From: Sipunculus nudus
Lineage: Eukaryota > Annelida > Sipuncula > Golfingiida > Sipunculidae
Length of the DNA: 64,000 bases
Direction of reading: 5' to 3'
Assembly (NCBI GenBank): GCA_026874595.1
Contig: CM049308.1
Coordinates: forward strand, 22,419,867-22,483,866
The translations under genes and the position numbers were made by a program. The notes beneath the pieces were generated by a model. The model saw nothing but the letters and a program-made list of their open reading frames with translations. It did not search any database and was not told where the DNA came from. This document shows, one piece after another, positions 30,770 through 61,794 of the stretch; within the stretch, counting starts at the first letter, position 1, and each line of letters starts with the position of its first letter.

Positions 30770-33700
30770 ATGGGTGGACCGACACTACAGGAAAGGAAGA
30801 TCGGTGCCATTGTGGGAGCAGCAGTAGCTGATGCTGCCGGTTAGGTTTGATTTGATTTTTCATTAAAGGCCGGTACCTATAGCTATCTACATAGCCTATC
30901 TGCCATATCTAATATATACATGAACTTTAGTGTTTTCTCCATAAAATATGATATATGCATGCCAATATTTTGTTCTAAAATCATTTGCTTACTCCTGTAC
31001 ACAAGTGAAAATAATTTGATATTGGGCGCTATCAGTGATGCAAAACATAAACATATCACTAGTGGCTGTACCATGCATGTAAGTTCTAATTCATGCCGAT
31101 TTTATTTTCCTGGTAATTTCCTCTTCGCGAATATCATGAATTTGTATAAAAAAAGAATGGCAACCTCTCTCTCTTTCTCTAACCGTAACAGAACTAGAAT
31201 TCCCGGTTAAGATTAGTTCAGTAAGCATTAGATAAAAGAGGTGGTTATATAGGGGCAGCAATACAGGGGAATGTATATATACCCCCCCCCTACTTTATAT
31301 CATAATTATATTTATATATTGGAAATGAAAAATGTTAATAGAAAGAATTATAGACTTTGGTTCCATACATAAGTTTACCATGAAATGTTACATATCTAAA
31401 CCTGATATATTATATACACGTGTGGGTGTATGCTTATGAAAGTTTCTTTTTCATAACTCCCGCCCCCTATCCTTGAAGATAAATGAACGCCACTGGATTG
31501 TTACCTCTACGATAAAATTATTTTTTTAAAATTTAAGCATCAGTGATTCACTTATAATGATGAACATTAAAGTGATGCCAGTCTTTCCGCTTTACAGCTC
31601 AGCCACTGCACTGGATCTATAACCTTGAGAAGCTGCGCTCCATCATTGGTGACAAGGAGGAGGTAGAGTTTTGGCGCCCGTCTCAGAACCCGTTTTACTG
31701 TATCGATACGGGTAAAGCCACGTGTTATGGAGACCAGGCATTCGTGGTTCTGGCATCACTTGCCGCCAAAGGAGGTAAATCTGAATATTAATAATATATT
31801 AATCTAGAAAGGGAAGCATTTTACCTGCAGATATCTATTTCGGGCAGATCTGTACATTATAAGCTCTTCTCTATTACAGGTAACTTCAAACTATAGAAAC
31901 TTTTATTACAGCTACCTTTAAAGTACAGGTATCTCTCTATTAAGGGTGCCTTTAAAATATATAGGCACTTCTCAATTACAACCACCTTTACACTAATGGT
32001 ACCCTACATTAAGGGCACCTTTAAAATATTTATGCACTTCTCTATTATAACCACCTTTCAACTACAGGTATACCCTCTAATAAGGGCACCTAAAAATATT
32101 TAGGCACTTCTCTATTTCAGCCACCTTTAAACTATAGGTACCTCTCTATTATATACTGTAGCATATTTTAAAGATGGTCTTCTAAGCAAGGTCTGATATA
32201 AATAGCAAAACAGCATTAGGACCTTGAAAATGTGGTCGTTATTTTGAGATGGTCGCTTAACTGAGGTGCATGGTTGTTAGGCTGCGTTTTATTGAATATT
32301 TGTATCTTATTCAGATGTGGACACCCAGGACATAAAAGAGAGACTATATCAGATGTTTGGCCCAAATTCAGAATATGAAAGTGAAGCAAATGCCGCTTAT
32401 AAATGGAAATCAGGTAAGGTTCCTGAATAGACTTTGATATATGTTAAAAAGGAAGTATTGATATTCTTACTATTTGAAATTGTTTTCCAAACATATTGAT
32501 AGATCACACAATTATAAAATAATTTTGAGACTTTTCCTGTATACGAAGTCTTTTATTATTCACTCGGTGTAGTCGGAGGAATGGCTCCTGTAATCTATAG
32601 ATATATTGAGAAAAAAATATTCTAATCTACGCTCCCGAGGCAGCGGAAATCTTGCGCTTCTAAAGAATTAGAATATTTTTTCTCGAAAATATGACTCTTT
32701 ATATGTGGACACATAATCGGTTTGTGATTGTTTAAGCAAAAATGCAATTGATTTACCGGTAATCATTAATTAAAGAAAATGACCAATCATCGATATATAA
32801 TGAATTAATTGAACACCATGAGAGCTTTCTTTACAAAAAGATGGTAAACCACAAACATTAAAAAAAGTTTGGCATAAATTTAATGATGGCAAAAACTACA
32901 TAAGATCAAGAAGACTAGTATTCAGTGACTAAGCACATCTCACGCTAAACTGAATGTTATTGTATATTATAACCTGTACAAGATGCACTTACCGGTCATA
33001 TGTAGAAACCATTAGTCCCAAAATAAATGTAAAAGAAAGAGTTGTTTACTCTTTCAGAAATAAATGAACATGTAAACTCTGACATCTAGGTATTAGTGTG
33101 TATGTAAAATGACAGCAATCCTGAGCAGTTTCGAGAGACTAGGAGAAAATACCTGTCAGGGTTCAATTGGGGAACTGGAACGTGACACAAGTATGCCTAA
33201 GCGTCCATGCGAGAATTTATCAGCAGAGATAATTTTTGTGCAAGGGGTCATGTTTAGGTAACGTTTAATGAGGCATGACGCTTTTTGTTCACCACGCCTA
33301 AATCCTCAAATTATAGTATAGGATCATTACTAGCATTAACTGGAAAATTTTCATAAACTCAGTGTATATAAACACATCGTTATATATCCACAGGTGTTCA
33401 GAAGACATATCCTATCCAAGGCCCATGGAAACATTTCTCCATTAAGGATTTCCTGGAAAAATACTCAAATGGTGAAGAAGAAACAGGTGAGGGATCATGT
33501 GATTGGGCTTCTCTTGTGTTATATAAAAATATTATATTTCGTAGATTATTTGGTAATATTATATCATATGAGCCTTCTTAGATCAATAAACAAGTAAAAG
33601 ATATGTGTGACATGTAAATGTTGAAAAAAATGTTTTTATTTTTGTATCGATTTTGTCAGAGCCATTGAAAATCACATTTATGTTTATCAGTAAATGTATA

Positions 33701-36700
33701 AGTCAACTTGCACCAATCAGTAAATTAATATATCGTTATACTGCACCAACTCTACTCTTTAGCAGCCGAGCATCGTAGGCCTTGGGCCACCAGCCTGTCT
33801 AGTTTCATGTTCAGTACATGGAGTATATAATTATAATTTTTCGTATAGGCTCAGAGAAGGATACGCAGATTGATGGTGTGACGAAGGTGGCTCCAGTGGT
33901 TGCAATGTTTTCTGGTAAACCTGAGATGCTTGACAAGGTAGAACAGATGATCAGAGTCACTCAGGACAACGATCTGGCCGTGGTGGCAGCTCTCGCTGGA
34001 GCTAGGTCAGCTTTACAATTACATTGATCTGAAGAGAGTTATTTTAAGGTTTTTTTTTTAAAGGAGAACCCCGCCTTCATTTTCATACGCTTGTCTATGA
34101 CGAGACGCATTACGTACGGTATACCACTGTTCGTGTGTCCATTAACTTTTAGTGTCGCCCGCGATCACAGTCGCTCAAATCCCCATTTGTGGTTTAGTTT
34201 TATCAAGAAATTGACGAAAATGTGCACCTTAGGAGTAAATATTTGTGATTACGTAGTAAGGCTTCGTACGGAGATAGCCTGTATAACTTTAGAGGTATAA
34301 TATATGCTCTATTTGTCCCCATTTCCTTCTGAAATAGGGATTCGAGCGACTGTGCCGCGATCCCTAACCGGGCCTTTGGTGGATTATCACGACACTCACT
34401 GTAACTTCTTACAAATAGGTAATCTCGTCCGAGTTCGATTATGGGCAAAATCCACACATATTTAATAAGGTCAGAGGTCACTAGGCTACTTTGTGGTGTC
34501 ACCGCGATACCTTACCAGGAATATGATCAGGATTTTGATAATCAATATAATATATCGCCTAAATTCGATTTTCAGCAAAATCCATGCATATTCAAAGAGG
34601 TCAGAGAGTACCAGACTTTGGTGGCGCCGTGATGACATACCAAATATCTGATGGATTTTCATTAAACTCTTGATAAATATTAACCAAGAGAGTTTCATAC
34701 ATGATTTACATTTTTAACATAAAGGAGTGTATACAAATATATAGATAGTCCCATTTCTTGATTTTTACATACCTAAACACTTCTTTTCAACACACAAGGC
34801 CAACTAATTTTTCACCTTTATTTTAAGTGAACCTGTGAACTTATGCGATGGTGTGGCTGAAATAAAATGACTCAGTTGGTATTCTCCTTGCTGACTTGGA
34901 TAATCCTGTTCATAAGAACCTTAAGTAGATATACAAAATAGCTTTGTGTTTGTGTTGCATTCAGGTTATTGGAGCACTATATCTTAAATGGTCCAGATCC
35001 GGATGCAGTGGATAAAGTGATCCGGCAGCTGGAAGATCCGGATAGAAACAATCCTCATGATCTGGATAAAGCTGTCGTGGGTCACCTCCGGAAAGTCCTG
35101 GCAGTGCGTGACCAGCCTCACTTCGAGGTCACCACCAAAGTCTTCAAGAACCACTGAGGTAATTGGATTATAACATCCATTAAATGTTCCCGTTAGGTCT
35201 GTAACGATACCATGGGGTACTGATACATTTCAGCGCAAATTCATATATTGTATTGGTATCGTCAGTTATCTGACAAAGCCCATGTGGGATAATCTATCTC
35301 CATACGGAAGTCTGATACTGTGGTTGCCTTTTTAAATTATTTTCGAGGATTTAATTTCGCTTTTTTCGCGAATAGGAAATAATCTTGAATATGAAACTCT
35401 ATGGGAAAGTTGCCTCATCATATAGGAGATGCCCTGACTGACTTGGCCCATAACTGTAAAACATGTTCCCTCTGGCTGAAATATCGCTTGTTGCGGCTCA
35501 CAATCGGACCTCTGGTCACGCAGCCTTGTTATGGTAAACAGACACACGTTGACTGTGTTTACAAACACGCACAACCACAACAAGGTGTTAAACAGCCGTT
35601 TGCGAGGCACTGAGACTGTGCGCTGGGATGGTTTTCACTGGAAATGTTTGTAAAAGGCAAGAATGAACTTATAGTCTGAAAAAATAGCTATAATATTGCT
35701 CCTGATTATGTCCATATAAGATAATCACTTGAATCTTATATACACAGGTTGAACATTTTATTTATATCAATATTATAACTTGGGGGACCCACCAAAATAA
35801 GTAACATTTAATATAGGAAAGTAACAGGTAAATCAAATATCTTACTAGTGGAAAGGTTAATACCACCAAACCAGAATAAGCGACTCAACTTGAATAATGT
35901 ACAGGAAATTGGATATTTTTACCTGAAACACTTTTGGACATAAAGACGACATTCCTTTGCTCTGCTTATATGTTACTTATATTTCCACCTGTACAGGTAA
36001 GTAAGGAAAATAAAGGTAATTTTTCCATAATTTATTAACAAACCAAATTTTTAAGTGAAGACAACATATCAGGAAAATATATTATCCTTCAATATGTTAT
36101 GTGTATATGAAAGTGTGAATTTGTGATGAATAAAAGTGAAACATTTTATAGTTAGTGACATTGTCTGAAGTAGGGCTGAAATAGCTACCACATTCTGGGC
36201 TCTAGCTCTGGAAAAATATGACCTGACTCGCCTTTTATTGCGCATTGCCATGGCAACACTAAAAAGATATAAATAGAGATCTATATACAAGTGGAACATG
36301 TGTGAAATCTAACAAGGTGACAGCTCTGTTCTCTCCCTTCTCAACCAAGGAACAGATATATATTTACATGTTATACACGAAGTGTTATAACTGACCAGTG
36401 TTAAACCGGTCTATACTGGTTGAAGCCCTATGGTTATGCGGTACGTTTGCAGCAAAATCGGGCCTTAAGTAACTGTATAGAACCGCCAGAGTAGACAGTT
36501 GAATACCCTATCACTGATCTCAAAGTTAAGAATTTCCCCGTCCGTAACCATGCTTATCTGCTTTCAATCGTTACCGTGAGCGATCAAAATGTGCTGCATA
36601 TTTATACATGTACATGCATACGTACTGCATACGAATGTGTGGAATCCCCCCCCCCCCAAGAGAATATGTGTGCGATTCCTAGCTGCATAATCATTCATAA

Positions 36701-38360
36701 TGTATACGGTATGTTCTGCATACGTGCATGTGAAATGCCACCTAAACCCAGACTCAAGTACTTTCATGCCTGCTCTCAAGCTAGTCTTTTTGTCCACAGT
36801 GTTGCCAACCTCCCTCCAGGTATCTGTGCATTCTGCGATCACCAGTTCTACGTTCACAGACGCTGTGCGTACCACGATCAGAGCTGGTGGCTGCAACGCA
36901 TCCCGCAGCGGCTTCAGTGGAGCGTGTCTGGGTGCACAGGTAACACATTTTAAATTGCTTAAGTATGGCTTGAAATATATACCGTAGGTCCCTTTTTTAT
37001 AGCCTCGGACATAAAACAAAACCTAATGAAAATGTGTACATTTTTTCACAACTAGACATGTGGCCATGTTTCCTAATATATATAACACTGGTAATTCTAT
37101 TTAATACCCTTAATACCCTATTTCATGTATAAAATTATAAGTAAACACTGACAATTCTATAGTTCAGTCTTATGAAGTAAAGAGCTTTCACAAAGCCCAA
37201 GTCATGTGAAAATCTTTTTAATTCATTATGGCACTGCGAGATCGATGGTCAGATAGTTTTGCAACAACTGACTGATCGCTTAAAATGGATCATTGCCCTG
37301 TCATTAACTTGTGGTAGAATGACCATATAAAATATTATTCAGCCTACAGTAAGGCCTAGGTTGGTATTTTTTTTTCATTGAGAATCCAACCATTCTTGAA
37401 CATTCCGTCAAACTCTTTGACCAAATACTTTAGCCTTGCAATGTTGGTTGTGAATATTATTACCATAAGGATTTAGGAATTCCGTTTAGGCGTTAGATTT
37501 TATTGTGTTACTATAGGAGGCAAGGTAATGTTATTAAGTGGAAGGCTGGTTTGGTCAGCTGTTGGGTATACCCCCTGAGCGAGCTGGACCTTGCAGGCGT
37601 ATAGCTAGTACACAAGACCAGATGAAGCTGACCGAGAGAGTTGGGTTCGGCTGGATTAATCATAGCATGAGGTTGTCAGCATGGGACAGCTTATTCCAGT
37701 ATAGGGTAGTCAGGACTGTAAAGAAATTATTTTAAGAATACATTTTATTATATTTTATTAGCAGCAAATCGTACAGGTGTTACGTATGTAGCCTTAGTGT
37801 TCACGTTAAGATGCTTGTCATTTAAAATATTTAATTTAGCCTTCCTATGATATTTATATGATGTTTATAGTGAGTTCGTGTACCCCTTTTTGTAACAATA
37901 TGACTGATCAGTGGGTAGTGTATACGTACAATTCCAGTGCCCATTTTTGGTGGTCCCGCATGGGATAAAGACATGTATATAAAGGTGTTTTGGGTTCGCA
38001 CTGGGGCTAGCTGAACGGGAGATTCTGAACGGACAAGAGAGAGAGTGCACGCTTGCTGAGTTGGGGGGTCAGACTAGGGCAGTGCCGCCCGCGGTCTGAC
38101 CTCTCCAGAAGTCAGAATTAAGACAGTGAATCGCCATCAGTTCTTTTATTCATTTGTTACCAGTCAAACAGCCGGTATTAGCAACAGGTCATATATAGCC
38201 AGAGAAAGAAACAATTGGTAGTAATATCATGAGCAAAGACAAACTAACTTCCATCTTATTTTTTTTGCAGTTTGGCTTGGAGGGAATTCCAGTTTCATGG
38301 AGACAACAGACAACCCGCTACCAAGAAGTCCTTGAACTTGCACAAAAAATAGTATCTTAA
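30770..38360 (+). CDS. selj: Selenoprotein J / J1-crystallin-like ADP-ribosylglycohydrolase-fold protein with in-frame TGA (Sec263)
   Basis: Eight exons: 30770-30839, 31598-31774, 32315-32413, 33394-33486, 33849-34005, 34965-35158, 36800-36939, 38271-38360 (TAA). All junctions are AG...GT and phases agree. The total is 1020 nt, 339 residues plus stop. TGA at 35155-35157 is codon 263. Translation continues in frame across two more exons with clear family similarity, ending LELAQKIVS. Family features: GAIVGAAVADAAAQPLHWIY (12-31), CYGDQ (66-70), DTQIDGVTK (151-159), TQDND (184-188), AGGCNASR (292-299). In active ADP-ribosylglycohydrolases the last motif is GGDTDT-like; here its metal-binding Asp residues are replaced, as I recall for J1-crystallins and SelJ, so hydrolase activity is doubtful. 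ATG 30770 follows an AG at 30750-30751, so an upstream non-coding exon is possible. A SECIS lies at 38745-38789. SelJ is reported in fishes and a sea urchin, with Cys homologues in cnidarians. Confidence 0.9.
30895..31080 (+). repeat. Dispersed repeat shared with 7370-7565
   Basis: Shared ttctaaaatcatttgcttac-like and taccatgcatg blocks. It lies in SelJ intron 1. Confidence 0.55.
31861..32155. repeat. Diverged ~74-bp tandem repeat in SelJ intron 2
   Basis: About four units alternate ctctattacagccaccttta-like and attaagggcacctttaaaat-like halves followed by ggcacttctc. Divergence between units is high, so the array is old. Confidence 0.75.
33110..33325 (+). repeat. Dispersed repeat shared with 16340-16565
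   Basis: Copy of the same family as 16340-16565, in SelJ intron 3, ending about 70 bp before the exon at 33394. Confidence 0.6.
34080..34720 (+). repeat. Interspersed repeat, family R1, longest copy
   Basis: The head (cttgtctatgacgagacgca ... attaacttttagtgtcgc) plus degenerate units with taataaggtcagaggtcact match 1455-1960. It lies in SelJ intron 5 between the exons at 33849 and 34965. Confidence 0.75.
35159..36799 (+). other. SelJ intron after the TGA exon
   Basis: A 1.6-kb intron with dispersed-repeat pieces at 35310-35390, 35420-35620 (like 7600-7800) and 36530-36740 (like 18925-19140). The acceptor tctttttgtccacag is strong. The TGA codon lies one base before the donor of this intron. 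Confidence 0.6.
37778..38186 (+). mobile_element. Possible solo LTR (retrotransposon fossil)
   Basis: About 409 bp runs from tgttacg to a terminal aaca, with a TATA-like tgtatataaagg near 37975 and a GC-richer transcribed-looking part after it. No matching 5-bp target duplication and no internal region were found, so the call rests on shape only. It lies in the last SelJ intron. Confidence 0.3.

Positions 38361-38660: not shown

Positions 38661-38697
<37 letters not shown>
38651..38697. repeat. (TA)n microsatellite at the duplication border
   Basis: (TA)n lies immediately left of ttagcgatattgttgg. Unit B starts after a similar ta-rich stretch near 49240-49262, so (TA)n pairing may have mediated the duplication. 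Confidence 0.85.
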
Positions 38698-38744
38698 GTT
38701 AGCGATATTGTTGGTAACTGTGACAAGATTATGGGGATGATTAC

Positions 38745-38789
38745 ATGATGTTTTCTAGGAAAGCACACCAAGTGTCCTGGAGAATTGAT
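38745..38789 (+). promoter_or_regulatory. SECIS element of the SelJ gene
   Basis: ATGA at 38745-38748 is followed by ttttctagga (38751-38760). This pairs over ten positions, including two G-U pairs, with tcctggagaa (38775-38784). TGAT follows at 38786-38789. The apical loop opens with AA (38761-38762). Spacing of 12 nt from ATGA to the loop AA matches the eukaryotic SECIS core (AUGA ... AA ... UGA quartet). It lies 385 nt after the stop and before AATAAA. A lower stem is suggested by atgggg (38731-38736) facing ctcccat (38791-38797), with an asymmetric internal loop. Confidence 0.85.
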
Positions 38790-38848
38790 GCTCCCATCAA
38801 GGCCCATGCTCTTCTTTCAGTTAATGGCATTTGTTTTGTTATATATTC

Positions 38849-38854
38849 AATAAA
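38849..38854 (+). terminator. Poly(A) signal AATAAA of SelJ
   Basis: tatattcAATAAAaaaaatg lies 60 bp after the SECIS and is the first canonical signal downstream of it. Confidence 0.6.
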
Positions 38855-38900
38855 AAAAATGAAATATGTCATTGTCATATTGTTCATTGTGATTACATTA

Positions 38901-41005
38901 CAAACATTATACGAAGAAATAGTGTTTTGTTTAGATTAAAACAAAATTTGTTTAACTTCGCCAGCTGTAAGTCATCTGAGCTAAAGGAATGGCCCTTTAT
39001 CCACCGTTTGTCTGCCATCTGTCTGTCATGTCACAAATCATTACTGTTAGGTCCAGGAGGTTAATACTTCACTTGCTGAATGTTCCTGATAGGTGTCCAG
39101 TCGAAACCAAAAGTAGGTCACTGTGACTTATATTCTCTGAGATTTTGAATGGAAATATGAGAAACCATCCATCCATATGTGAAGAGGGCACAAACCAACA
39201 CTGAAAGGCCAAGGAACTTGCTGACATGCTAACCATATGATAGGTCCTCTGTGGAAAATGAAGAATAGGTCATTGTGTTTTATATTTTAAGATCAAATAC
39301 CTGAGAAGTTAAGATAACTGTCAGAAAAAAATACAAAAGGGCAAATTTCTCAAGAATAGCTACTCAAATAGCTAAATAGCTATACTCTCTCCGTTAACGA
39401 ACCTCTTTCTATTGGGCACTGTGGGATGGTCGGGACTACTTGTCTCATCTGTCAAACTTGAAATTCAAAGTTGTTACAATTCAAGCACTAGTGCTCACAA
39501 AATATAATTAACTTCCGTGAAGTCCTTGCAACAAAATTACCCATGTTTATGTAATTTGCCCAGGGGCGGATCCAGGATTTAGGAAAAGGGGGGGGGTCCA
39601 ACCCAGGGGGACAAATGTGAACCCTAAAAAAAAGGTCCTCAGGTCTGAAAAAGGGGGGGGGGGGTCCAGGCGGCAAAATTTTGTCTGAAGCCCTTAAAAA
39701 AACGTTGTTTCTGTTGAAAAAGGGGGGGTCCGGACCCCCTGGACCCCCCCCCCCCCCGGATCCGCTTCTGTTGCCTTCGAACAATTCTAATCCAACGTAC
39801 TCAAACTGACTACAGTATCATTTTCATTACAACTGTTATATGGCTGTATCAATATGCCGAAGTATCGATATATACTTTAATTACCCTCCCATGCTTTCGA
39901 GTCTTCCCCAACCCTCTAAGATAAATTGACTGCACTGTCTAAATAAGCATTTAGCTGTAAAGTTGGCTTAAAGCAGTTGTTTAGCTTATACGACCATTTG
40001 CCCGATAAGCTTATGTCATCGTCACGCGGCGTCCGTCTATCCGTCTTTCCATCTAGCATCCGTCCACAAAGTTCAAAATGCTTTTTCCCTTTTATTTCTC
40101 TAATTTTCGCTGTTTTATCTAGGAAGGCTAGGTATGGGCTCTGAAATCTATATACAGAATTTTTGAAATTAATTAATTATGCACATTATTGCATATTTTT
40201 GAAATCATCCAAAATGCTTATTTTCCTTTATTTTTTTTAGCAATTTTTATATAGTTTTATTTTTTTTTTCATCTAACAGGACTAGCTGTTACCTCACAGA
40301 CTTCCACAGAGTCATTAATAATGCAAATTTATACACACATTTTAAAAATCACATCATCGCTTCTTTTCCACATACAAACATACGATATTAGATGCACAAC
40401 CATTTCCTCTTCAAATGAAAGATTTCGGTCACATACCAAGCATAAAAACAGTACTACTACATTCCATATGATTTTTTTAATGTGGAGAAAATAAAACAAT
40501 GTATAGACAAATAAATTAAATAAATAATACACATAACAGGTGAGATTTAAATAAGAAATATGATATCTCCAATAAATAACTTGACTAATAAATGACTTCT
40601 TGATCATGAGAGTACATAAATCTAATGCATTTATTTGACTAAATATTGATTTTTTTTACGGTCATTAATGTAACAGCATGACATGCTGTAGAGAATAATT
40701 TATGAATTTCACGGGATTCCTACTCCCATGAAAGTGCTATCAAGTCATGCTATTGGACATCTGGAACTTATTGAGTTATAAAATTTAAACATTTTATGTG
40801 CTCAACATATCTCATTATTTTCATAAATGGATACTTTAACACAAAGGTAATTTCAAAGTGAGAAACAAAATTAAATCCAAATGAAAAGAACCAATTTATA
40901 CACAATTTAAAATGTATTTTAAAAGTATAAGAAGACTTGTGGGGTTAAACGTAACATTTCCAATACATCGAGATATATCCGGAATATTAAGAAATGGTAT
41001 TGCTC
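38901..41005. other. Repeat-rich spacer between SelJ and the secreted-protein gene
   Basis: Holds diverged dispersed repeats (38960-39330 with gtcactgtgact words; 40000-40330 with cgataagcttatgtcatcgt and cgtccgtc words), the MITE at 39561-39770 and AT-rich 3' sequence of the minus-strand gene. No exon was recognised. Confidence 0.55.
39561..39770. mobile_element. 210-bp hAT-like MITE present only in unit A
   Basis: Ends are caggggcggatcc and, inverted, cagaagcggatcc, with target duplication TTGCC at 39556-39560 and 39771-39775. The unit B sequence near 50112-50125 (aatttgccttctaacaattc) is the empty site. The interior is G/C runs with no coding capacity. Confidence 0.9.
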
Positions 41006-43657
41006 TTAGGACATATTAATTTCCGCAGTTCCCCGTAAAAGCCATTTCAGCCCTTGGTTATTCTCCACTTGTTCCGCTAACGCTGACAATTCCCGCCAGA
41101 TGGGGTTACCTTCTGCGTGGACGGGCATTATGGGATACCTGAGACGGACACTCCCGACATTTTTCAAGTGAGGAAGACTGATGTATTGACCAGAAGCTTT
41201 TGTCCATCTCACTTTTCCGTCCCTGTCTAGAACCTTCCATGCATTACCTGTGGTATCCGCGTCAGTTTTACCTAACCAGCCAAAGAAACTTTCAGGTGTT
41301 CTGTAGAAGTTCTTGGAGTTTGTACCGTTAAGGGCACCGTCAGGGCCGCCCAAAACAGTTTTACCGAGCTCAGAATCGGCGTCTCCTTTATACTCAATAT
41401 TATACGGGTTCCAGTTGAATAATGGTGTCAAGTAAATGATTTCCAGTGGGATGGCGTATGAAACTTTCTGGTGATGCAAATGGCAATTTTCCTTGTTATT
41501 TCCATAACAAAGCTTCAGTTTCATACCTGGTATGTTTTCTTGAGTGTTAAATGCCACAAACAGATTAGAATCTGAAAAAGAACGGCTCCTTTTACGACTT
41601 CCCATTGCTCCAGCCTTATCCTCCAAATAGTAACGGTGGTAACGGGCTGCGTTCAGTGGTTCGCCGGTGATGATGTCATACTTTTTACCATGAAAATTAT
41701 CTTCAACAAAGCCTGGATAGTTATCTTTTCCAGGAATCTCAGACATTATCTTATCTAACGCATCGTAATTATAAGCATAGTTTATTCTACCCCATTTATT
41801 TGGATGGTGCAACTGAAACCTGCTATGGCGTGCCTTGTGCGATTGGAAATAAGTTTTCTGGGAAGCCATGCGTGGAGCCAAGTCGTCCAGCATTCTCATA
41901 TCTGAGGGGTCAACGTAACTTTTAAGTGGGTGACACAAAATGCGATAATTCCACTGGGCAATCACTGGTTTGGAACCTTCAATATCAATAATTTTTCGTG
42001 GCATAAATGCATAGTTTTCCCCGGGATTCTTATGTCCCGTATAGGATGTGTACTTGATCTTATCCAGCATGTCCTCCCAGTCCGCTGCGTCAAGTTGGTG
42101 CCGATCACTATCAAAATCGGTAAAATTCCCGTCTGAGTCGGTCCAAGCACCTTCCAAGTAACACAACACGGGTTTAAAGTATTTCTTGTACGGCCTGTGT
42201 GTTTCGTTATGCGTGTGAAAAGCATAAAACCATTCCCTCATTTCTTGGGATTGTTCTTGCACCGAGTCCAGATTGCTGACTTCCTCTGGAACATCGGGAA
42301 AAGGGATTTCTTCCGTCTTGTGGTAGCCTGTACCTGTGGTGTCCGGCATGCGCAAAAGATAATCATTATGCCGGGTACGGAATTCAACCCCGTTCAAGAC
42401 GGCGGCAATTTCTCCCATCCCCACAGTCCTGTAGTGGTTCGGGTGGTTGTGGATGCCGGCGATCCCACTATATGAAGAGTAGTGTGGGCTGAAATATGGT
42501 TTTGTGCCACCGTTGACAACTCGCACTTGCTTTATGCCAGATTGACCATTTGTGCCTGTAGCTAGCTCTACGGCCATTTGGGACAGGAGAAGTTGTCGGG
42601 TGACTGCCTTTAAATTTTCTTCCAATCTCTCAAGACGCTCCCCTATCTCAGATCCAGCGCACAGAGGAAATATCAGAAGTACCATCACCAGGGTTACCCG
42701 CATCTGTGGAGTAGTAAAGAAAAGATAAATGATATGAAATCAATAAAATATTTTATGATTAAAGGGACTGTTCCGATGTAAGTCTTTTTACCGATCGTAG
42801 TGCAGACTTGCTCTTTATTTTATTTATATCCAAGTCCTTACCAACAAAAATTTTTTTCTTTTATTTTTTCAACATGGGCACATGTTCCGTGTTTTCTAAA
42901 AGTGTGTTGTTAAACAAGGTCATATATCTGTTACAGAGGCATCATACGAACTATTAATATGTACACAGAGTAAAACAGCAATCAAATTTACAGATAATGC
43001 AATTGAATAGCTGGTTTTAATATTCTGTTGCTAAATTTCAATGCGTACCGGGGTTGGAAACAATACTGCTGTCTAATATATGTAATTTGCCTATGTACAT
43101 TAAACTTAATAAATACTTTACCTTGAAATATACTTAACATTAAGGAAAGTAATTTGTCATTTTAACCGGCTGAAGTGCACGGCTGCAGAGTGTATACAGT
43201 ATTACTGTATTCGGTACACTGCATGCAAGCCCGGGATAGAGCGGCTGCGCAGAACCACTTAATGTATGAATAACAAGATGTCGCAAACATTAAATCCCTG
43301 TCAGGATGATCCGTCTTAAACCACCCGCTAACAATGAACAGTATGTCTGTCTTAATGAAACAGCCATAACAATGGGATAGAACCCTTTGAATTAACATTA
43401 TGTTGATCCAGATTACCTCCAAAATATAATGGATTCTTCCTTGGGTGTTTTCCTAACCCTCTACAAAATTTCAAGAAAATCTGTTCAGAACTTTTCTCGG
43501 ACATTTGCTGACAGATTAATCGAGAGTAAAGTATAATACCTCGTATAATACTTGGTAAATGTGTAATAATATTTTTACGAGTAAGGATTCTACAGGAGCT
43601 GACTGTATTAAACGTTAATACTATTAATATAAAACGTTAACGGAATCTTACCTTCAT
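41006..43657 (-). CDS. Secreted protein of unknown family, copy A (two exons)
   Basis: Exon 1 is 43657-43652 (ATG AAG, Met-Lys) with donor aag|gtaaga; exon 2 is 42703-41006 after the acceptor tactccacag, stop TAA. The protein is 567 residues, MKMRVTLVMVLLIFPLCAGS then mature chain. The hydrophobic N-terminus is a good signal peptide, likely cut near the AGS at 18-20. A short amphipathic helix or coiled coil follows (EIGERLERLEENLKAVTRQL). The rest is His-, Tyr- and Asn-rich with clusters such as HNHPNHYR, HTHNETH, LHHPNKW, RYHRYYLE and CHLHHQK, which could bind metal. N-glycosylation sequons include NETH, NFTD and NGTN. Conserved-looking core: VSYAIPLEIIYLTPLFNWNP. I do not recognise the family. 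A TATA box stands upstream at 43747-43753. Confidence 0.88.
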
Positions 43658-43746
43658 AGCTACTGTGAAGTATTTTCTCTATCTGGGATCCTGGCTTTTT
43701 CTATGATCGTTGTCGATGTGTGATGTGACTGTGAAACGGGAGGTCC

Positions 43747-43753
43747 TTATATA
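43747..43753 (-). promoter_or_regulatory. TATA box of copy A
   Basis: gctaTATAAgg on the minus strand, about 90 bp before the exon 1 donor. Transcription would start near 43720, giving an exon 1 of about 70 bp whose only codons are ATG AAG. The same element is kept in copy B. Confidence 0.7.
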
Positions 43754-44149
43754 GCTTTCACAGAAGACCCACCTACCTGACCAAAACAGAAAGTAGGGCA
43801 GTGGGGAATCGGTCAGCTGAGAATTTCTGGACATTAGGGTAGGGGGTTAAAACTGGTATCTGGATATGAGGCGTTAACCTCTGACCTGAAACTTAACGCT
43901 TTTTTGCGTGAACAAGTTTACACGGGCCAAAAATCCTTCACGTCACGTCCATTATATACCCCGCCCTTGATATAATACCCCTTTTAAGTATCATAATTTT
44001 TAAATCATGCCGAAAATAGAGATGCCGATATAGTTTAACTGCTATTTTATTTAACTTTGTGTATTGACTATATGGGAATACGAAATCTTATGAGAAAAAT
44101 TCAACATTTAACCGTTTAGGCTAGGAATTGGGGGGGGGGGGGGGGGGGG

Positions 44150-44216
44150 GGGGGTTGAACCATGCATAGACTTTAAGCCGTCAAATCTAACGCCTTAACC
44201 ACTATATATCCGCTCT
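44150..44216 (-). repeat. tRNA-like sequence (SINE head or tRNA pseudogene)
   Basis: On the minus strand, tagtggttaaggcg (box A) and tggttcaacccc (box B) are separated by about 30 nt, resembling a Leu/Ser-type tRNA 5' half and T arm. The acceptor stem is not paired, so it is not a functional tRNA. It abuts a 25-base C/G run and is repeated at 54055-54125. Confidence 0.4.
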
Positions 44217-45094
44217 GCTCTGCCTTTCCCACTATATAAACTTTATATGATTTATCTGGCATGTGTCAGTATATTGGATCCGGTCAAATGGCCTGATTAT
44301 ATACCTCACGAGTATGTTTGTACAGAAAACACTTAATATATGGGATGTATACCCTTCATGACCACATGCACAAGAATAGTTGTAGCTAAAATGTACACAG
44401 GGGATTTAGGACACATGGGCGATCTTTTTTGACATTGGTTATATTATATTTATTTAAGTTTTCAAAGTCGGCCTCCCATCCCCACAAAATCCCCACAGTG
44501 AACAAATAATCTAAGTTTATTCCAAACAAATTTAACAACAGTGATAAATAATGCAAATTTTTTTCCAGGGCCATTTTGCAATAATGTCAATGTATTTTAT
44601 GTAATACATGGATAACATTTATAGAATGCGTAGCAAAAATGTCGTTGCCAAAATTATTTTGGACTAACTTGTTAAATCCGTGTCTGTATCTGATAACTTC
44701 CAGTTTAAATATCTGGGTGAATTCTTGAAATCATTCAACTGAACAAAAGCCCTCCACTTGAGCTTTTTTTTTTTTTTTTTTTTTGGTTAAACGAGGCTCT
44801 TATTTACAGTATAGGAGTCTTTACCAGGTGGTGCGTGCCCACACATACACCTATAAATATATCGAATTAGCGCACACATCACCTTTTTCCGTGTCAGCTG
44901 TCACGTCTTCAGTTTCCAATTTTCGTCAAGAATTATGGATGAAAGAGGGAAAGGGACCTATCTGTTTTAGTTCCGAATTGTAATCAGACCACTGGGAGCG
45001 TATAGGTTTGGATTGTGCATCTGGCCCAAACTTTATACATAAGAAACCCCCACTTTCAGTGGTCTGATTATAATTCGTGCTCTTTGCGTACCCT

Positions 45095-45182
45095 GCATGG
45101 TGTTCGAGCCCAGAGAACCTTGCAATACAAAGCAGCGGTTACACGAAAGGATGTTTGGGACGACTGCAGTCAGGAGCGTTGA
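45095..45182. repeat. SINE-like fragment in unit A
   Basis: gttcgagccc ... accttgcaatacaaagcagc ... gactgcagt. It is like 55005-55112 and 9955-10075 but lacks the ggcgcagcgg part. Confidence 0.4.
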
Positions 45183-47339
45183 TAAATATGTAAAAAGTAG
45201 GCTCTTTCTTCATGTATCATTTCATTTGAACAGGAATTTTCAGTTCAAGTAAGTTAAATCTTTTTAAATATACGTTTATAACACCAAATGTGATCCATAT
45301 TTTTTTGTTTAAGGCATACCCGGTATATGCTTTTCAGTGGTATGACCTAGCATTTGGGAAAATTACACACCATGGGCCCGCAGGTGCAGTAATCACCGGA
45401 CCAGGGCAACACCAGGATATCAAAATGAGAGGAAGCGGGTGCTCCTCCCCTATCATGTAGCTTGCATTGAAAGTGGAAGATCTTACCCCCAAAATAAGAT
45501 TTACAATTTACGATAAAACAGGAGAAGTTAGAAATCATTTCAGTGCAACGTTTACCTGTAATTTATAAATGAAATCAAAGTACTTTCGCTTGTGTGAGAA
45601 AGTATAATAGGTATGTCATAGGTATGTCGACTCGTGACCATGTCAAACACGTCATAAAAAATAAACTAAATGTTAAAGAAATTTTATTATTTTGATTTCT
45701 TTTTAGGGAGTCGGTCCGGCTTGAACACAGAAGTAGTAATTTTCTTTATTCTAAAAATCAAAGTAACATCTTTAATGGACCGGGGGGAGGGGGGGGGGTA
45801 TTCATTTTTTAGCGTAAGATGTACAGCACATTTTTCCTTTTTTGTTCCCTATAACCTGTTTTGATTCTATGTACAGCACATATATTACTATTAAACCTGC
45901 AATGAACTACCAGTAGCCGTCGCTGGTCCGTGATCTTCCCTTTCACGCAAACATCACGCTATGTTTACATATATATGTCCTCGATGTGAAGCCAAGGTTG
46001 ACAAAAAGCGAACTTTACGTCCTCAGAAGATACCGTAAATCAAGTGAGAGCTACGGTTTATATATTCATTCAGGGCTGAATCGGTTCAAGAATAAAAGAT
46101 TAATCATATAGCAGTAGTTAGAAGCGTTTTACAAGAGATCAACTGTGTACCTATATGCGGACAGCCCTTGCAAATAAAACAACCAGGCATGGGAATTTAA
46201 TTATATATACAGTGATAGATTTGAGGCGGAAGGAAGTGATGGGTGTAAAACCCGTCTTATGAAATTTTTACTTACCTTAGGCATATTTCATTAAAATCAA
46301 TTGGGTATATGGCCTGCACAATTTTCTTCGACTTCAAGAAGACAGAAAGCACTCGCGTGCCCCATGCAGTGCATTTGGAGCTTTATGTATTATGTATACG
46401 AAGGCCGTACTTGGATTCTCTGATCCGCGTTCCACTCCTTACACGTAAAGCCAAACATTTATTACCGTGCTGGTCAGCTGCCCATAACAGTAAGTTAAGT
46501 TTTGTCTTTGACATGCCACAGAACACAGGGTAGCAAAACTGCTGGTCAGCTGCCCATCACAGTAAGTTTTGTCTTTGAAATGCCACATAACACAGGGTAG
46601 CAAAACTGCGTGCAGGCGCGGTTCCAGGATTTATTCCGGGGACGGATGGGTACTACAGATATACTAGTACATGTATATACATACCCTGAATTTATGTCTG
46701 AGGGCCCTCCATGTACAAGAAATATTTGGTAATCTGGGAGACAATGGGCGCTATTTTTCTGGATTTAAAATGCCGACTCTTTCACCAAAATAATTATTTT
46801 TTTCACTCACCACGTTTAAATTACATAAATAATAATGTTTACCTTTTGATTGTCAAAGATACCCATGCAGTCATTATAACAGTCATAAAAATAACAGTGA
46901 GATACGACAGATGGTATACATTCAAACATAGCAATAATGTAAGTGGAGCATTGACAGATATGTTCATAAAACCATCAGATTATGGTAAAGAAAGTATATA
47001 AGGACATTCTGAGACATATCCATCTGGGATATTCACAAGTTTGTTTGAATCTAAATAGCGATAAGATTGGGGGGGGGGGGGGGAGTGATGATCCCCCAAA
47101 ACGACACCTCTGAATCAACAGCCGTGCATTAACATGATTTAGTAAACAAGACCAGCTGTTGTTGTGTCTGGAAATACCCATCGGCCAGCAGCAACTAATT
47201 CTAAAGTTGCATGTTATAGTCAATGACTTCATGTAATCTATATATAGGGATACAACAGATGTACCTGGCCAACTGGTCGCCATCCCAACATATTTAAGTA
47301 TGATCAAATCATACTTAAATATTTGTATTTGATCGGAAG

Positions 47340-48420
47340 ATTCGAGGCCAAATGGATACAATGTGTGCCTGTCTGACTCTTTGTGTGTTCAAAATAAAGT
47401 TTTCGGCCAGTAGCTCTCAGAATATTGGTCACCATTACCTAATTTATGGTTTCTGGGGAGATTTGCCTAGAATCTCCCTGGATTACAGTTAGAAATTTCC
47501 AGGTCTAACAGATAGAATTTGTCCCCTTTGTGGCAGTCGGGGTGCTAAAAATCATGTTTTTGGCCTGTCACTCGCAGAAATAAGTCACCATGACCAGGTA
47601 TAAGTTTTCAAATAACATTTGCCCAGAATTCCCTTAATGTTGCGTTAGACGATTCCAGGCCTAACGGCTACAATTTGGGCTATAATCTGACTTTCATGGT
47701 GTTCAAAATGTTTTTTCCCCTATAGCTTGCAAAATATATAGTTTTCCAAATGTTGGTCACAGTGACCTAATTTCATGTTTCCAAGGACAATTATCCAGGA
47801 CCTCTCTGAATATGACATAAAAAATTTCTAGGCTAAATGGATACATTTTGTGCCCCATCTGACTCTCTGGGTGCTCAAAATCATGTTTTCAGCCAGTAGC
47901 TCGCAGGTTACCAGGAAGAATTTCACAGGACCTCCCTGGATGTTCAGTTTATGAGTCTAACGGTTACAGTTTGTACCCTGTTGACACCGAGACTTCTTCA
48001 TTTTAAAGTATCAAAAATAAAGGGGGAAATGTATAAAAATTAGAAAATAATAGAGGTGGCGCCACCAGACTTCAGGAACTGATAAAACACTTCATCAATT
48101 ATGCATGGGGAGAATCATGGCAATCAATGCATTAGTTTTTCAGCCAACGAACATTTGTATAAAGTGTTTTTATCATCCTGGAGGCTACTTGTGAGCCCCT
48201 AGCTCTGGGAATAAAGGTTACAGTGACCTCATTTTTTTCCAAGGAGATTTTTGTGGAATCCATTGACCGTGAGATGTTTCTAGGTCCAGCGGTCACGACT
48301 TGTGCCCTGTTAATGGATAATCGGACGGCCAGACGGCCTGACTATGGACTTAGTGATCGCTATAGCTCAGATGAGTTTCATTTACATGACCTATAAGTTA
48401 TTATTGACATTTTTCAGTTC
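47340..48420. repeat. Degenerate ~175-bp tandem repeat array
   Basis: Units share gtgctcaaaatcatgtttt, gccagtagctcgcag, ggtcaccatgacctaattt-like, ccaggacctccctgg-like and taacggatacaatttg-like blocks. The array ends in cggacggccagacgg and atagctcagatgag, an inverted relative of the family R2 head. It is also present at 58650-59071 and 60178-61010. Confidence 0.8.
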
Positions 48421-48469
48421 CAATTTATAAAGATTACTCTCTGAATCTCAAGGGAGATGATTATACAGT

Positions 48470-48556
48470 GACATCCCCCCCCCCCGCTGATGCCCCCCGC
48501 CACCCCCCCCCCCCCCCCCCGCTAAAGGCAGCCCTACAAACCCCCCCCCCCCCCCC
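48470..48556. repeat. Clustered C-runs
   Basis: Several runs of 8 to 18 C within 90 bp. The equivalent position in unit B (61066-61110) has shorter runs. Confidence 0.85.
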
Positions 48557-48699
48557 CTGCGCTCCCAACCCAAACCAGGAAATCACACCTTATAATAGCT
48601 AGAAACTAAAAATTGGGGAGCGACCACAGATATCCGCCAAATCACAAAGACATTGGTAAAATCAGGTATTGAATGTTCCTGACATGACATGACTCAAAA

Positions 48700-49235
48700 T
48701 TTGTGGTATAAAAGATGCCAAAGTATCCCAAGCCAGATGGATTAACTAAACTTATAATAAATATGGGCAGACGACAAGCCACAGCAAGTATTCACAGATC
48801 CATGAATAAAGCGAGGGATGGAATGGACAGGTGGCGCAACCTGTCTGGTGGCGATTTTAACCCAGAGCAAATGGACAGATAGACACCACGCGAAAACAAT
48901 TGCAGATGGCGCCACCAGTCTTGAGTACTAAAGGGGGTTATCTAAGATCAATGGTCATGCAGGATTTCAGGCCAATACAGCTAGCCACTCCTGAGAACAG
49001 GGCATCAATGTATTACAAAAAAATGGGAAGGTAGGTGGCGACACCTGTCTGATTTACATGAAAACTCTACAAGATGGATGGAAATACCAAATTTCAGACT
49101 ACTACATTGAACCACTCCTGTTTTATGAGGAATTTTCACCTAAAGCAAACGCACGGATGGACGCCACGCAAAGCCGATTACAGATGGCGGCACCAGTCTT
49201 GGGTACGAGTGGGAGGTATTCAGTTCATGTTGGCG
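48700..49235. repeat. Tandem repeat zone with cagatggcgccacc words
   Basis: Units carry aagtatcccaagccagatgg-like, cgcacggatggacgccacg-like and ttacagatggcggcaccagt-like blocks. It is duplicated at 61250-61765. Small reading frames in it are repeat-derived. Confidence 0.75.
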
Positions 49236-49313
49236 GTGATATATATATATATGTTTATATATTCATGTTAGCGATATAGTTGGTAACTGTGACAAGATTA
49301 TGGGGATGATTAT

Positions 49314-49358
49314 ATGATGTTTTCTAGGAAAGCACAACAAGTGTCCTGGAGAATTGAT
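49314..49358 (+). promoter_or_regulatory. Orphan SECIS copy
   Basis: Copy of 38745-38789 made by the tandem duplication. ATGA, ttttctagga, AA, tcctggagaa and TGAT are all retained; the only change is one loop base (cacacc to cacaac). AATAAA follows at 49418-49423. No SelJ coding exon lies upstream within unit B or the end of unit A. Confidence 0.8.
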
Positions 49359-51344
49359 GCTCCCATCAAGGCCCATGGTCTTCTTTCAGTTAATGGAATT
49401 TGTTTTGTTGTATATTCAATAAAAAATTGAAATATGTCATTGTCATATGGTTCATTGTGATTACATTACAAACATTATACGAAGAAATAGTGTTTTGTTT
49501 AGATTAAAACAAAATTTGTTTAACTTCGCCAGCTGTAAGTCATCTGAGCTAAAGGAATGGCCCTTTATCCACCGTTTGTCTGCCATCTGTCTGTCATGTC
49601 ACAAATCATTACTGTTAGGTTCAGGAGGTTAATACTTCACATGCTGAATGTTCATGATAGGTGCCCAGTCGAAACCAAAAGTAGGTCACTGTGACTTAGA
49701 TTTTGAATGGAAATATGAGAAACCATCCATACATATGTGAAGAGGGCACAAACCAAAACTGAAAGGCCAAGGAACTTGCTGACATGCTAACCATTTCTGA
49801 TAGATCCTCTGTGGAAAATGAAGAATAGGTCATTGTGTTTTATATTTTAAGATCAAATACCTGAGAAGTTAAGATAACTGTCAGGAAAAAAATACGGAAG
49901 GGCAAATTTCTCAAGAATAGCTACTCAAATAGCTAAATAGCTATACTCTCTACGTTAACGAACCTCTTTCTATTGGGCACTGTGGGACGGGCGGGACTAC
50001 TTGTCTCATCTGTCAAACTTTAAATTCAAAGTTGTCACAATTCAAGCACTAGTGCTCACAAAATATAATTAACTTCCGGAAAGTCCTTGCAACAAAATTA
50101 CCCATGTTTATGTAATTTGCCTTCTAACAATTCTAATCCAACGTACTCAAACTGACTACAGTACCCTTTTCATTACAACTGTTATATGGCTGTATCAATA
50201 TGCCGAAGTATCGATATATACTTTAATTACCCTCCCATGCTTTCGAGTCTTCCCCCACCCTCTAAGATAAATTGACTGCACTGTCTAAATAAGCATCTAG
50301 CTGAAAAGTTGGCTTAAAGCAGTTGTTTAGCTTATACGACCATTTGCCCGATAAGCTTATGTCATGGTCACGCGGCGTCCGTCTATCCGTTTTTCCATCT
50401 AGCATCCGTCCAAAAAGTTCAAAATGTTTTTTCCCTTTTATTTCTCTAATTTTGTATTTGTTTTATCTAGGAGGGCTAGGTATGGGCTCTGAAATCTATA
50501 TACAGAATTTTGAAATTAATTAATTATGCACATAATTGCATATTTTTGAAATCATCCAAAATGCTTAGTTTCCTTTATTTTTTTTTAGCAATTTTTATAT
50601 AGTTTTATTTTTTTCATCTAACAGGACTAGGTGTCACCTCCCAGACTTCCACAGAGTCATAAATAATGCAAATTTATACACACATTTTAAAAATCACATC
50701 AACGCTTCTTTTCCACATACAAACATACGATATTAGATGCACAACCATTTCCTATTCAAATGAAAGTTTTCGCTCACATACCAAGCATTAAAACAGTACT
50801 ACTACATTCCATATGATTTTTTTAATGTGCAGAAAATAAAACAATGTATAGACAGATAAATTAAATAAATAATACAAATAACAGGTGAGATTTAAATAAG
50901 AAATATGATATCTCTAATAAATAACAAATGACTTCTTGATCATGAGAGTACATAAATCTAATGCATTTATTTGACTAAATAGTGATTTTTTTTACGGTCA
51001 TTAATGTAACAACAGCATGACATGCTGTAGAGAATAATTTATGAATTTCACGGGATTCCTACTCCCATGAAAGTGCTATCAAGTCATGCTTTTGGACATC
51101 TGGAACTTATAGAGTTATAAAATTTATACATTTTATGTGCTCAACATATCTCATTATTTTCATAAATGGATACTTTAACACAAAGGTAATTTCAAAATGA
51201 GAAACAAAATTAAATCCAAATGAAAAGAACCAATTTATACACAATTTTAAATGTATTTTAAAAGTATAAGAAGACTTGTGGGATTAAACGTAACATTTCC
51301 AATACATCAAGATATATCCGGAATATTAAGAAATGGTATTGCTC

Positions 51345-53579
51345 CTAGGACATATTAGTTTCCGCAGTTCCCCGTAAAAGCCATTTCAGCCCTTGGTTAT
51401 TCTCCACTTGTTCCGCTAACGCTGACAATTCCCGCCAGATGGGGTTACCTTCTGCGTGGACGGGCATTATGGGATACCTGAGACGGACACTCCCGACATT
51501 TTTCAAGTGAGGAAGACTGATGTATTGACCAGAAGCTTTTGTCCATCTCACTTTTCCGTCCCTGTCTAGAACCTTCCATGCGTTACCTGTGGTATCCGCG
51601 TCAGTTTTACCTAACCAGCCAAAGAAACTTTCAGGTGTTCTGTAGAAGTTCTTGGAATTTGTACCGTTAAGGGCACCGTTAGGGCCGTCCAAAACCGTTT
51701 TACCGAGCTCAGAATCGGCGTCTCCTTTATACTCAATATTATACGGGTTCCAGTTGAATAATGGTGTCAAGTAAATGATTTCCAGTGGGATGGCGTATGA
51801 AACTTTCTGGTGATGCAAATGGCAATTTTCCTTGTTATTTCCATAACAAAGCTTCAGTTTCATACCTGGTATGTTTTCTTGAGTGTTAAATGCCACAAAC
51901 AGATTAGAATCTGAAAAAGAACGGCTCCTTTTACGACTTCCCATTGCTCCAGCTTTATCCTCCAAGTAGTAACGGTGGTAACGGGCTGCGTTCAGTGGTT
52001 CGCCGGTGATGATGTCATACTTTTTACCATGAAAATTATCTTCAACAAAGCCTGGATAGTTATCTTTTCCAGGAATCTCAGACATTATCTTATCTAACGC
52101 ATCGTAATTATAAGCATAGTTTATTCTACCCCATTTATTTGGATGGTGCAACTGAAACCTGCTATGGCGTGCCTTGTGCGATTGGGAATAAGTTTTCTGG
52201 GAAGCCATGCGTGGAGCCAAGTCGTCCAGCATTCTCATATCTGAGGGGTCAACGTAATTTTTAAGTGGGTGACACAAAATGCGATAATTCCACTGGGCAA
52301 TCACTGGTTTGGAACCTTCAATATCAATAATTTTTCGTGGCATAAATGCATAGTTTTCCCCGGGATTCTTTTGTCCCGTATAGGATGTGTACTTGATCTT
52401 ATCCAGCATGTCCTCCCAGTCCGCTGCGTCAAGTTGGTGCCGATCACTATCAAAATCGGTAAAATTCCCGTCTGAGTCGGTCCAAGCACCTTCCAAGTAA
52501 CACAACACGGGTTTAAAGTATTTCTTGTACGGCCTGTGTGTTTCGTTATGCGTGTGAAAAGCATAAAACCATTCCCTCATTTCTTGGGATTGTTCTTGCA
52601 CCGAGTCCAGATTGCTGACTTCCTCTGGAACATCGGGAAAAGGGATTTCTTCCGTCTTGTGGTAGCCTGTACCTGTGGTGTCCGGCATGCGCAAAAGATA
52701 ATCATTATGCCGGGTACGGAATTCAACCCCGTTCAAGACGGCGGCAATTTCTCCCATCCCCACAGTCCGGTAGTGGTTCGGGTGGTTGTGGATGCCGGCG
52801 ATCCCACTATATGAAGAGTAGTGTGGGCTGAAATATGGTTTTGTGCCACCGTTGACAATTCGCACTTGCTTTATGCCAGATTGACCATTTGTGCCTTTAG
52901 CTAGCTCTACGGCCATTTGGGACAGGAGAAGTTGTCGGGTGACGGCTTTTAAATTTTCTTCCAATCTCTCAAGACGCTCCCCTATCTCAGATCCAGCGAT
53001 GTGGAGTAATAGGAAAGAAAAATGATATGAAATCAATAAAATATTTAATGATTAAAGGGACTGTTCCGATGTAAGTCTTTTATCCGATCGTAGTGCAAAC
53101 TTGCTCTTTATTTTATTTATATCCAAGTCCTTATAAAAAGGGGGGGGGGGAGGCGCAGAAATAACCTTAACGCATTCATCAAGGACATCTGGCGGCAAGT
53201 CGGACGAACTAAAGTTTTACAAGGGCGTTTTGCAACTAGTGATCACCCGCTAATAATGAACAGTAAGTCTGTCTTAATGAAACAACCGTGACAATGGGAT
53301 AGAACCCTTTAAATTAACATAATGTTGATCCAGATTACCTCCAAAATATAATGGATTCTTCCTTGGGTGTTTTCCTGACCCCCTACAAAATTTCAAGAAA
53401 ATCTGTTCAGAACTTTTCTCGTACATTTGCTGACAGATTAATCGAGAGTAAAGTATAATACCTCGTATAATACTTGGTAGATGTGTAATAATATTTTTAC
53501 GAGTAAGGATTCTACAGGAGCTGACTGTATAAAACGTTAATACTATTAATATAAAACGTTAACGGAATCTTACCTTCAT
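51345..53579 (-). CDS. Secreted-protein paralogue, copy B, signal-peptide segment lost
   Basis: The open frame runs from 53036 to 51345 (TAG). From GSEIGERLE onward it differs from copy A at only eight residues (for example T/K, V/I, H/Q, F/S, I/T). Exon 1 (53579-53574, ATG AAG) with donor and TATA box at 53669-53675 is intact. Relative to copy A, about 46 bp are missing near 53000, removing the AG acceptor and MRVTLVMVLLIFPLC. Two outcomes are possible: (a) splicing to the next AG at 52987-52986, which gives in-frame Met-Lys-IGERLE without a signal peptide; (b) use of the former intron ATG at 53036, giving MISYHFSFLLLHIAGSEIG, a plausible new signal sequence. The latter needs an unspliced or alternatively started transcript. 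The frame has no internal stop. Confidence 0.75.
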
Positions 53580-53668
53580 AGCTATTGTGAAGTATTTTCT
53601 CTATCTGTGATCTTGGCTTTTTCTATGATCGTCGTCGATGTGTGATGTGACTGTGGAACGGAAGGTCC

Positions 53669-53675
53669 TTATATA
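53669..53675 (-). promoter_or_regulatory. TATA box of copy B
   Basis: gagctaTATAAgg, at the same position as in copy A. Confidence 0.65.
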
Positions 53676-54054
53676 GCTCTCACAGAAGACCCACCTACCT
53701 GACCAAAACAGAAAGTAGGGCAGTGGGGAATCGGTCAGCTGAGAATTTCTGGACATTAGGGTAGGGGGTTAAAACTGGTATCTGGATACGAGGCGTTAAC
53801 CTCTGACCTGAAACTTAACACTTTTTTGCGTGAACAAGTTTACACGGGCCAAAAATCCTTCACGTCACGTCCATTATCTACCCCGCCCTTGATATAATAC
53901 CCCTTTTAAGTATCATAATTTTTAAATCATGCCGAAAATAGGGATGCCTATATAGTTTAACTGCTATTTTATTTAACTTTGTGTATTGACTATATGGGAA
54001 TACGAAATCTTATGAGAAAAATTCAACATTTAACCGTTTAGGCTAGGAATTGGG

Positions 54055-54125
54055 GGGGTGTTGAACCATGCATAGACTTTAAGCCGTCAAATCTAACGCC
54101 TTAACAACTATATATCGGCTCTGCT
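54055..54125 (-). repeat. tRNA-like sequence in unit B
   Basis: Duplicate of 44150-44216. Next to it the G-run is only 7 bases, against 25 in unit A. Confidence 0.4.
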
Positions 54126-55004
54126 CTGCCTTTCCCACTATATAAACTTTATATGATTTATCTGGCATGTGTCAGTATATGGGATCCGGTCAAATTGCCT
54201 GATTATATACCTCACGAGTATGTTTGTACAGAAAACACTTGATATATAGGTTGTATATACCCTTCATGACCACATGCACAAGAATAGTTGTAGCTAAAAT
54301 TTACACAGGGGATCGCGGACACATGGGCGATCTTTGTTGACATTGGTTATATTATATAAGTTTTCAAAGTCGGCCTCCCATCCCCACAAAATCCCCACAG
54401 TGAACAAATAATCTAAGTTTATTCCAAACAAATGTAACAACAGTGATAAATAATGCAAATTTATTTTCCAGGGCCATTTAGCAATAATGTCAATTAATTT
54501 TATGTAATACATGGATAACATTTATAGAATGCGTAGCAAAAATGTCGTTGCCAAAATTATTTTGGAATAACTTGTTAAATCCGTGTCTGTATCTGATAAC
54601 TTCCAGTTTAAATATCTGGGTGAATTCTTGAAAATCATTCAACTGAACAAAAGCCCTCCACTTGAGCTTTTTTTTGGTTAAACGAGGCTCTTATTTACAG
54701 TATAGAAGTCTTAACCAGGTGGTGCGTGCCCACACATACACCTATAAATAAATCGAATTAGCGCACACATCACCTTTCTTTCCGTGTCAGTTTAGTCACT
54801 TCTGCTATCACTTCCATAGTTTCCTATTTTCGTCAAGGATTATTAAAGAAAGAGGGAAAGGGACCTATCTTTTTTTAGTTTTAGTTCCGAATTGTAATCA
54901 GACCACTGGGAGCGTATATATAGGTTTGGATTGTGCATCTAGCCCAAATTTTATACATATGAAACCCCCACTTTCAGTGGTCTGATTATAATTCGTGCTC
55001 TTTG

Positions 55005-57543: not shown

Positions 57544-57625
<82 letters not shown>

Positions 57626-57780: not shown

Positions 57781-57781
57781 T

Positions 57782-60012: not shown

Positions 60013-60069
<57 letters not shown>

Positions 60070-60172: not shown

Positions 60173-60177
60173 ACTCG

Positions 60178-61765: not shown

Positions 61766-61794
61766 AGTGACGTCACACACGGGGAAATCCCCTG

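Follow-up and report, generated by a model that had tools for sequence, protein, structure and literature searches.

A probable eight-exon SelJ gene with an in-frame TGA

The window analysed here, a stretch of 64,000 nucleotides, almost certainly carries a selenoprotein J (SelJ) gene on its + strand. Reconstruction of the gene gave eight exons between positions 30770 and 38360, with a coding sequence of 1020 nt that comprises 339 codons and a terminal TAA; all of its introns are of the GT-AG type. Only two stop codons occur in the reading frame, a TGA at codon 263 and the TAA at codon 340. A single base separates the TGA from the end of exon 6, and 76 more residues are encoded past it before the UAA is reached. 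The exon coordinates, phases and 339-residue length in a preliminary description of the locus were all reproduced by the rebuilt gene, which has the following parts.

30770-30839, + strand: exon 1 with the ATG start (gene rebuild; donor CCG/gttagg; matched in the genome search)
31598-31774, + strand: exon 2 (gene rebuild; matched in the genome search)
32315-32413, + strand: exon 3 (gene rebuild; matched in the genome search)
33394-33486, + strand: exon 4 (gene rebuild; matched in the genome search)
33849-34005, + strand: exon 5 (gene rebuild; matched in the genome search)
34965-35158, + strand: exon 6, holding the proposed Sec codon (gene rebuild; the genome match reports one TGA inside)
35155-35157, + strand: TGA codon 263, proposed selenocysteine (gene rebuild; Cys/Ser column of bacterial relatives)
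36800-36939, + strand: exon 7, VLPTSLQ...AGGCNASR... (gene rebuild; with exon 8, 47 bits against the bacterial J1-type profile)
38271-38360, + strand: exon 8 with the TAA stop (gene rebuild; matched in the genome search)

By its sequence, the encoded protein is a member of the ADP-ribosylglycohydrolase (ARH) fold family, probably of a J1-crystallin-like branch. With Cys typed at position 263, residues 12-317 matched Pfam family PF03747 (ADP-ribosylglycohydrolase) with an E-value of 1.7e-37. When the 1.43 Gb genome was searched with the protein and E-values up to 1 were accepted, eight matches were returned, all of which were its own exons; no further SelJ copies were found in this search, and the gene is single-copy within the limits of a search at that threshold.

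A pipeline reading the TGA as a stop would shorten the gene or break it in two, which makes the locus a clear annotation test that standard methods would probably fail. In PMC12822975, SELENOE, SELENOL and SELENOJ are given as the worst cases in Ensembl vertebrate annotation, with less than 1% well annotated.

Codon 263 and the Cys column of bacterial relatives

The comparison set was built from bacterial sequences. With tblastn, plasmid records yielded nothing at E 1e-5 and 21 hits when E was relaxed to 10; five of the 21 were examined, and alignment showed two of them (L030 and L031) to be J1-type. Bacterial and archaeal genomes were scanned with a three-row alignment of the SelJ gene, L030 and L031, which yielded 98 relatives. 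Eighty of these loci were kept and, together with L030, provided 81 non-SelJ rows. Before any row was removed, these showed 77 C, 2 S and 2 gaps at codon 263. Four rows were removed, two with no letter at the column (L084, L106) and two in which the frame was lost before it (L096, L110). In the remaining 77 alignable relatives, a bacterial set with 18-33% identity to SelJ, the column held 75 Cys and 2 Ser. Both Ser residues at this near-invariant column belong to Vibrio loci (L091, L093). The tally did not change when X or G was typed at position 263, or across three MAFFT modes, so the result is independent of the typed Cys. Codon 263 is the sole SelJ position at which at least 90% of the relatives have Cys, and the column shows which residue selenium would replace.

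The bacterial J1-type ADP-ribosylglycohydrolase relatives (L030, L031 and L035-L114) belong to the same family as SelJ but have Cys at the place of the proposed Sec. They share H28, W29, Y31, Y67, G68, T184, G294, R299, P317 and W320 with the SelJ gene in at least 90% of the 77 sequences. There are also differences: all 77 have GGD where the SelJ gene has GGC, with Asp in place of Cys at residue 295, and residues 110-130 of SelJ are absent from every one of them. No relative came out of single-sequence scans of genome and viral contigs. Five viral-contig loci from a DNA-pattern search were considered as relatives and rejected, as none showed a family protein.

When a profile made from bacterial sequences only was applied to the two parts of the protein separately, the residues before the TGA scored 104 bits and those after it 47 bits (E-values for these scores refer to a three-sequence database). 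The 47 bits obtained for the post-TGA residues alone indicate that exons 7 and 8 are genuine family sequence. This bears directly on the possibility that the TGA is a true stop, as the standard code would have it, and that the gene yields a protein cut short at 262 residues or is a pseudogene in decay, with exons 7 and 8 as remnants. The first 262 residues do match the family on their own at 104 bits, and with the TGA one base before an exon end a short transcript is easily imagined. However, the frame, the splice sites and the family motifs are all kept in exons 7 and 8, no other stop occurs within the 339 codons, and the TGA coincides with the Cys column and is followed by a SECIS element, all of which make a true stop very improbable in our view.

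Alternative splicing could also remove the TGA and give a shorter, full-frame protein without Sec. The preliminary description had stated that no alternative donor in exon 6 keeps the phase, which holds for the gag/gtcacc site joined to the normal acceptor but is too broad as a general rule: when 18 GT or GC donors (34990-35155) were combined with 10 AG acceptors (36700-36899), 39 of the 180 combinations skipped the TGA and kept the family frame. Three donors did so with the normal acceptor at 36800 (34990, 35080 and 35107, the last reading TGC/GTGACC), and the gag/gtcacc donor did so with two other acceptors (36781 and 36820). Judged by eye, however, these donors are poorer than GAG/GTAATT, and every one of the 39 combinations removes codon 263 and with it the near-invariant Cys column. 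Splicing of this kind would also leave the SECIS element unexplained, and we rate it as even less probable than a true stop.

A SECIS element in the 3'UTR and its duplicate

Proteins of the SelJ family are ARH-like, contain a single Sec and have a SECIS element in the 3'UTR. Such an element was found in the 3'UTR of the present gene; it was absent from the preliminary description and is the strongest addition to the case. The features downstream of exon 8 are as follows.

38745-38789, + strand: SECIS with ATGA at 38745-38748, an 11-pair helix, an A-rich start of the apical loop and TGAT at 38786-38789 (geometric scanner, Rfam)
38849-38854, + strand: AATAAA polyadenylation signal, downstream of the SECIS (read directly in the sequence)
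49314-49358, + strand: orphan second SECIS, without SelJ exons (scanner, duplication comparison, Rfam)
41006-42703 and 51345-53036, - strand: tandem paralogue ORFs of 565 and 563 aa (ORF reading)

In the SECIS element all 11 helix pairs are formed, and the apical loop starts with AAG at 38761. In a 121-nt scan, Rfam matched positions 38736-38798 to SECIS_1 with 27.1 bits and an E-value of 8.4e-4, the top match among 4227 families and below the Rfam gathering score of 35. The match was listed in 121-nt scans only and not in the 540-nt or 64-kb scans, whose filters are stricter; at the gathering threshold, Rfam reported nothing in the window. A strict geometric scanner, whose thresholds were chosen after the element had been seen, gave two matches on the + strand of the window, the SECIS and its duplicate, and one weaker match on the minus strand. 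On simulated sequence the same scanner produced 26 matches in 9.6 Mb (150 strands), a rate of roughly 0.0014 per 500 nt, and not one of these equalled the SECIS in quality (at least 11 pairs and E of -20 or lower); an earlier simulation had given 5 matches in 20 strands. Taken by itself, the folding energy of the element was not exceptional, at a z-score of -1.70, with 13 of 200 shuffles folding at least as well. Both a true stop at codon 263 and splicing around it leave the Cys column and this SECIS to coincidence.

As a control within the genome, nine glutathione peroxidase (GPx) loci (L116-L124) were scanned with looser settings. SECIS-like hairpins were seen at L121 (112 nt past the stop codon) and at L123, where the hairpin was not placed relative to a stop; none was seen in the 836 nt of flank behind L119 or the 424 nt behind L120. 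The L121 hairpin, a candidate SECIS, scored 13.6 bits in Rfam (E 5.2) and had a folding z-score of 0.41, with 131 of 200 shuffles as good. The control is weak: the last exon was identified for three GPx genes, and a hairpin lay behind just one of them.

The SECIS lies in a tandem duplication of the segments 38672-49239 and 49239-61770, the main pieces of which are 87-96% identical. Each copy carries a SECIS together with an ORF some 565 codons long, and only the first copy stands behind SelJ exons; the duplication has left an orphan SECIS at 49314. The orphan keeps the helix and the quartets, with one change in the apical loop, and scored 26.6 bits (E 0.0012) in a 121-nt Rfam scan. We rejected the idea that the hairpin is part of a dispersed repeat, as its 151-bp block was found just twice in the genome search, both times inside the window. 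Neither the 565-aa nor the 563-aa ORF matched Pfam, and the first (41006-42703) had no convincing PDB match; its start resembles a signal peptide by eye. At the other end of the window, positions 24-1262 hold a repeat that yields long frames of the unit YLKGGKLSI, which are probably spurious.

Sec decoding, host lineage and proposed function

Searched with the Rfam tRNA-Sec model, the genome gave three matches over the cut-off, of which ARAGORN calls two tRNA-SeC and the third tRNA-Ser.

G000:C7:54033618: tRNA-Sec gene L022, anticodon tca (UCA) (Rfam and ARAGORN)
G000:C3:49879707: tRNA-Sec gene L023, anticodon tca (UCA) (Rfam and ARAGORN)

GPx-type exons with an in-frame TGA at the catalytic position were also present, reading VNVASKUGFT at L118 and NVATYUG at L119, L120 and L121. 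These four loci lie on contigs C4 and C2, and L123 has Cys at the catalytic position. A search for Rdx gave one match in the genome, on contig C119 and without a TGA, and a SelP_N search, whose own control was uninformative, gave no match.

Readthrough of stop codons occurs in animals, and the TGA might be read in another way, as Trp, Cys or Arg by a near-cognate tRNA. Selenocysteine is the parsimonious choice given the exact Cys position, the SECIS and the tRNA-Sec genes, and we regard such readthrough as the least probable of the alternatives considered. We put a probability of about 0.94 on the reading that this is a single-copy lophotrochozoan SelJ gene whose UGA 263 is read as selenocysteine, directed by the SECIS, with translation continuing to the UAA; this figure rests on the Cys column, the match to SECIS_1 and the genes for tRNA-Sec. 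The suggestion in the preliminary description that the in-frame TGA is probably selenocysteine is supported by the Cys column, the 3'UTR SECIS, the tRNA-Sec genes, the TGA-bearing GPx-type exons and the family sequence downstream. In the mechanism that we propose, tRNA-Sec(UCA) would decode UGA 263 as Sec under the direction of the 3'UTR hairpin, and we infer actual insertion of Sec at this codon from the features described above.

The gene had also been described as protostome-like, and the Hox genes of the host agree with this. On contig C12, one homeodomain match is followed by KLTGP (L131) and two have IKELNE tails (L134, L135). We take KLTGP to be the mark of Lox5, and IKELNE tails to be those of Lox2/Lox4, of lophotrochozoans; on that understanding, the host has one Lox5-type gene and two Lox2/Lox4-type genes. 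KLTGP was also part of the typed query, yet locus L131 has its own NNIQKLTGP.

PF03747 matches also occur elsewhere in the assembly, 20 in total, and most of the strong ones are on high-numbered contigs with long open frames. Such contigs (for example, those of L001, L002, L006 and L008) hold long uninterrupted ARH and COX1 frames, and the four ARH frames that were read are much alike. These contigs look as if they were of bacterial origin, with several symbiont or contaminant strains in the assembly.

The classical ARH/DRAG proteins (PF03747; ARH3 and DRAG) are sequence relatives of SelJ in PDB and Pfam. TDD and GGDTDT are the two-metal-site motifs of ARH enzymes. Both motifs are absent from the SelJ gene; in the alignment, TDD is replaced by TCY (65-67) and GGDTDT by GGCNAS (293-298), and the DRAG equivalog model scored 23 bits on SelJ against a cut-off of 337. 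Because metal-binding residues are changed, ordinary ADP-ribose hydrolysis by this protein looks unlikely. In the predicted structure of the bacterial relative L035 (pLDDT 96.5), Cys228, which corresponds to SelJ codon 263 (structure-related alignment A2, 56 of the 80 loci), is placed in a loop, with predicted helix 217-224 before it and predicted helix 230-243 after it. Sec263 would take the place of this near-invariant bacterial Cys, in a short loop before a helix. We propose a function that may be redox or otherwise selenol-dependent, perhaps with Cys295 as the partner of Sec263.

SelJ is documented from fish, amphioxus and algae; the gene described here comes from a lophotrochozoan, an animal of the branch that includes molluscs and annelids. 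We take the cnidarian J1-crystallins to be Cys relatives of SelJ. A table in PMC3473315 places SelJ in amphioxus alone among six invertebrates; neither the mollusc Lottia nor the annelid Capitella is listed with it. In other sources, SelJ is given for fish and amphioxus (PMC3828610), is covered in fish (PMC3316567) and is also reported from algae, including one protein with two Sec (PMC7539508); a paper on prokaryotic selenoproteins (PMC13188914) does not mention SelJ, ADP-ribosyl or crystallin. A lophotrochozoan SelJ was not named in this literature, of which the coverage is partial, and we do not claim the lineage as unreported. The gene adds a member to a known family, in a lineage for which that family is thinly documented.

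A broader proposal, tentative and in our estimation rather doubtful, is that SelJ is an ARH-fold protein turned selenol enzyme, which would have lost its metal ligands and acquired a redox pair of Sec263 and Cys295. Under the same proposal, the use of Sec in the family would reach Lophotrochozoa, and the SelJ of animals would be an old bilaterian gene that has disappeared from many lineages, not one peculiar to deuterostomes. The presence of SelJ in a lophotrochozoan extends a patchily distributed family and bears on whether the gene was present in the bilaterian ancestor and was repeatedly lost thereafter.
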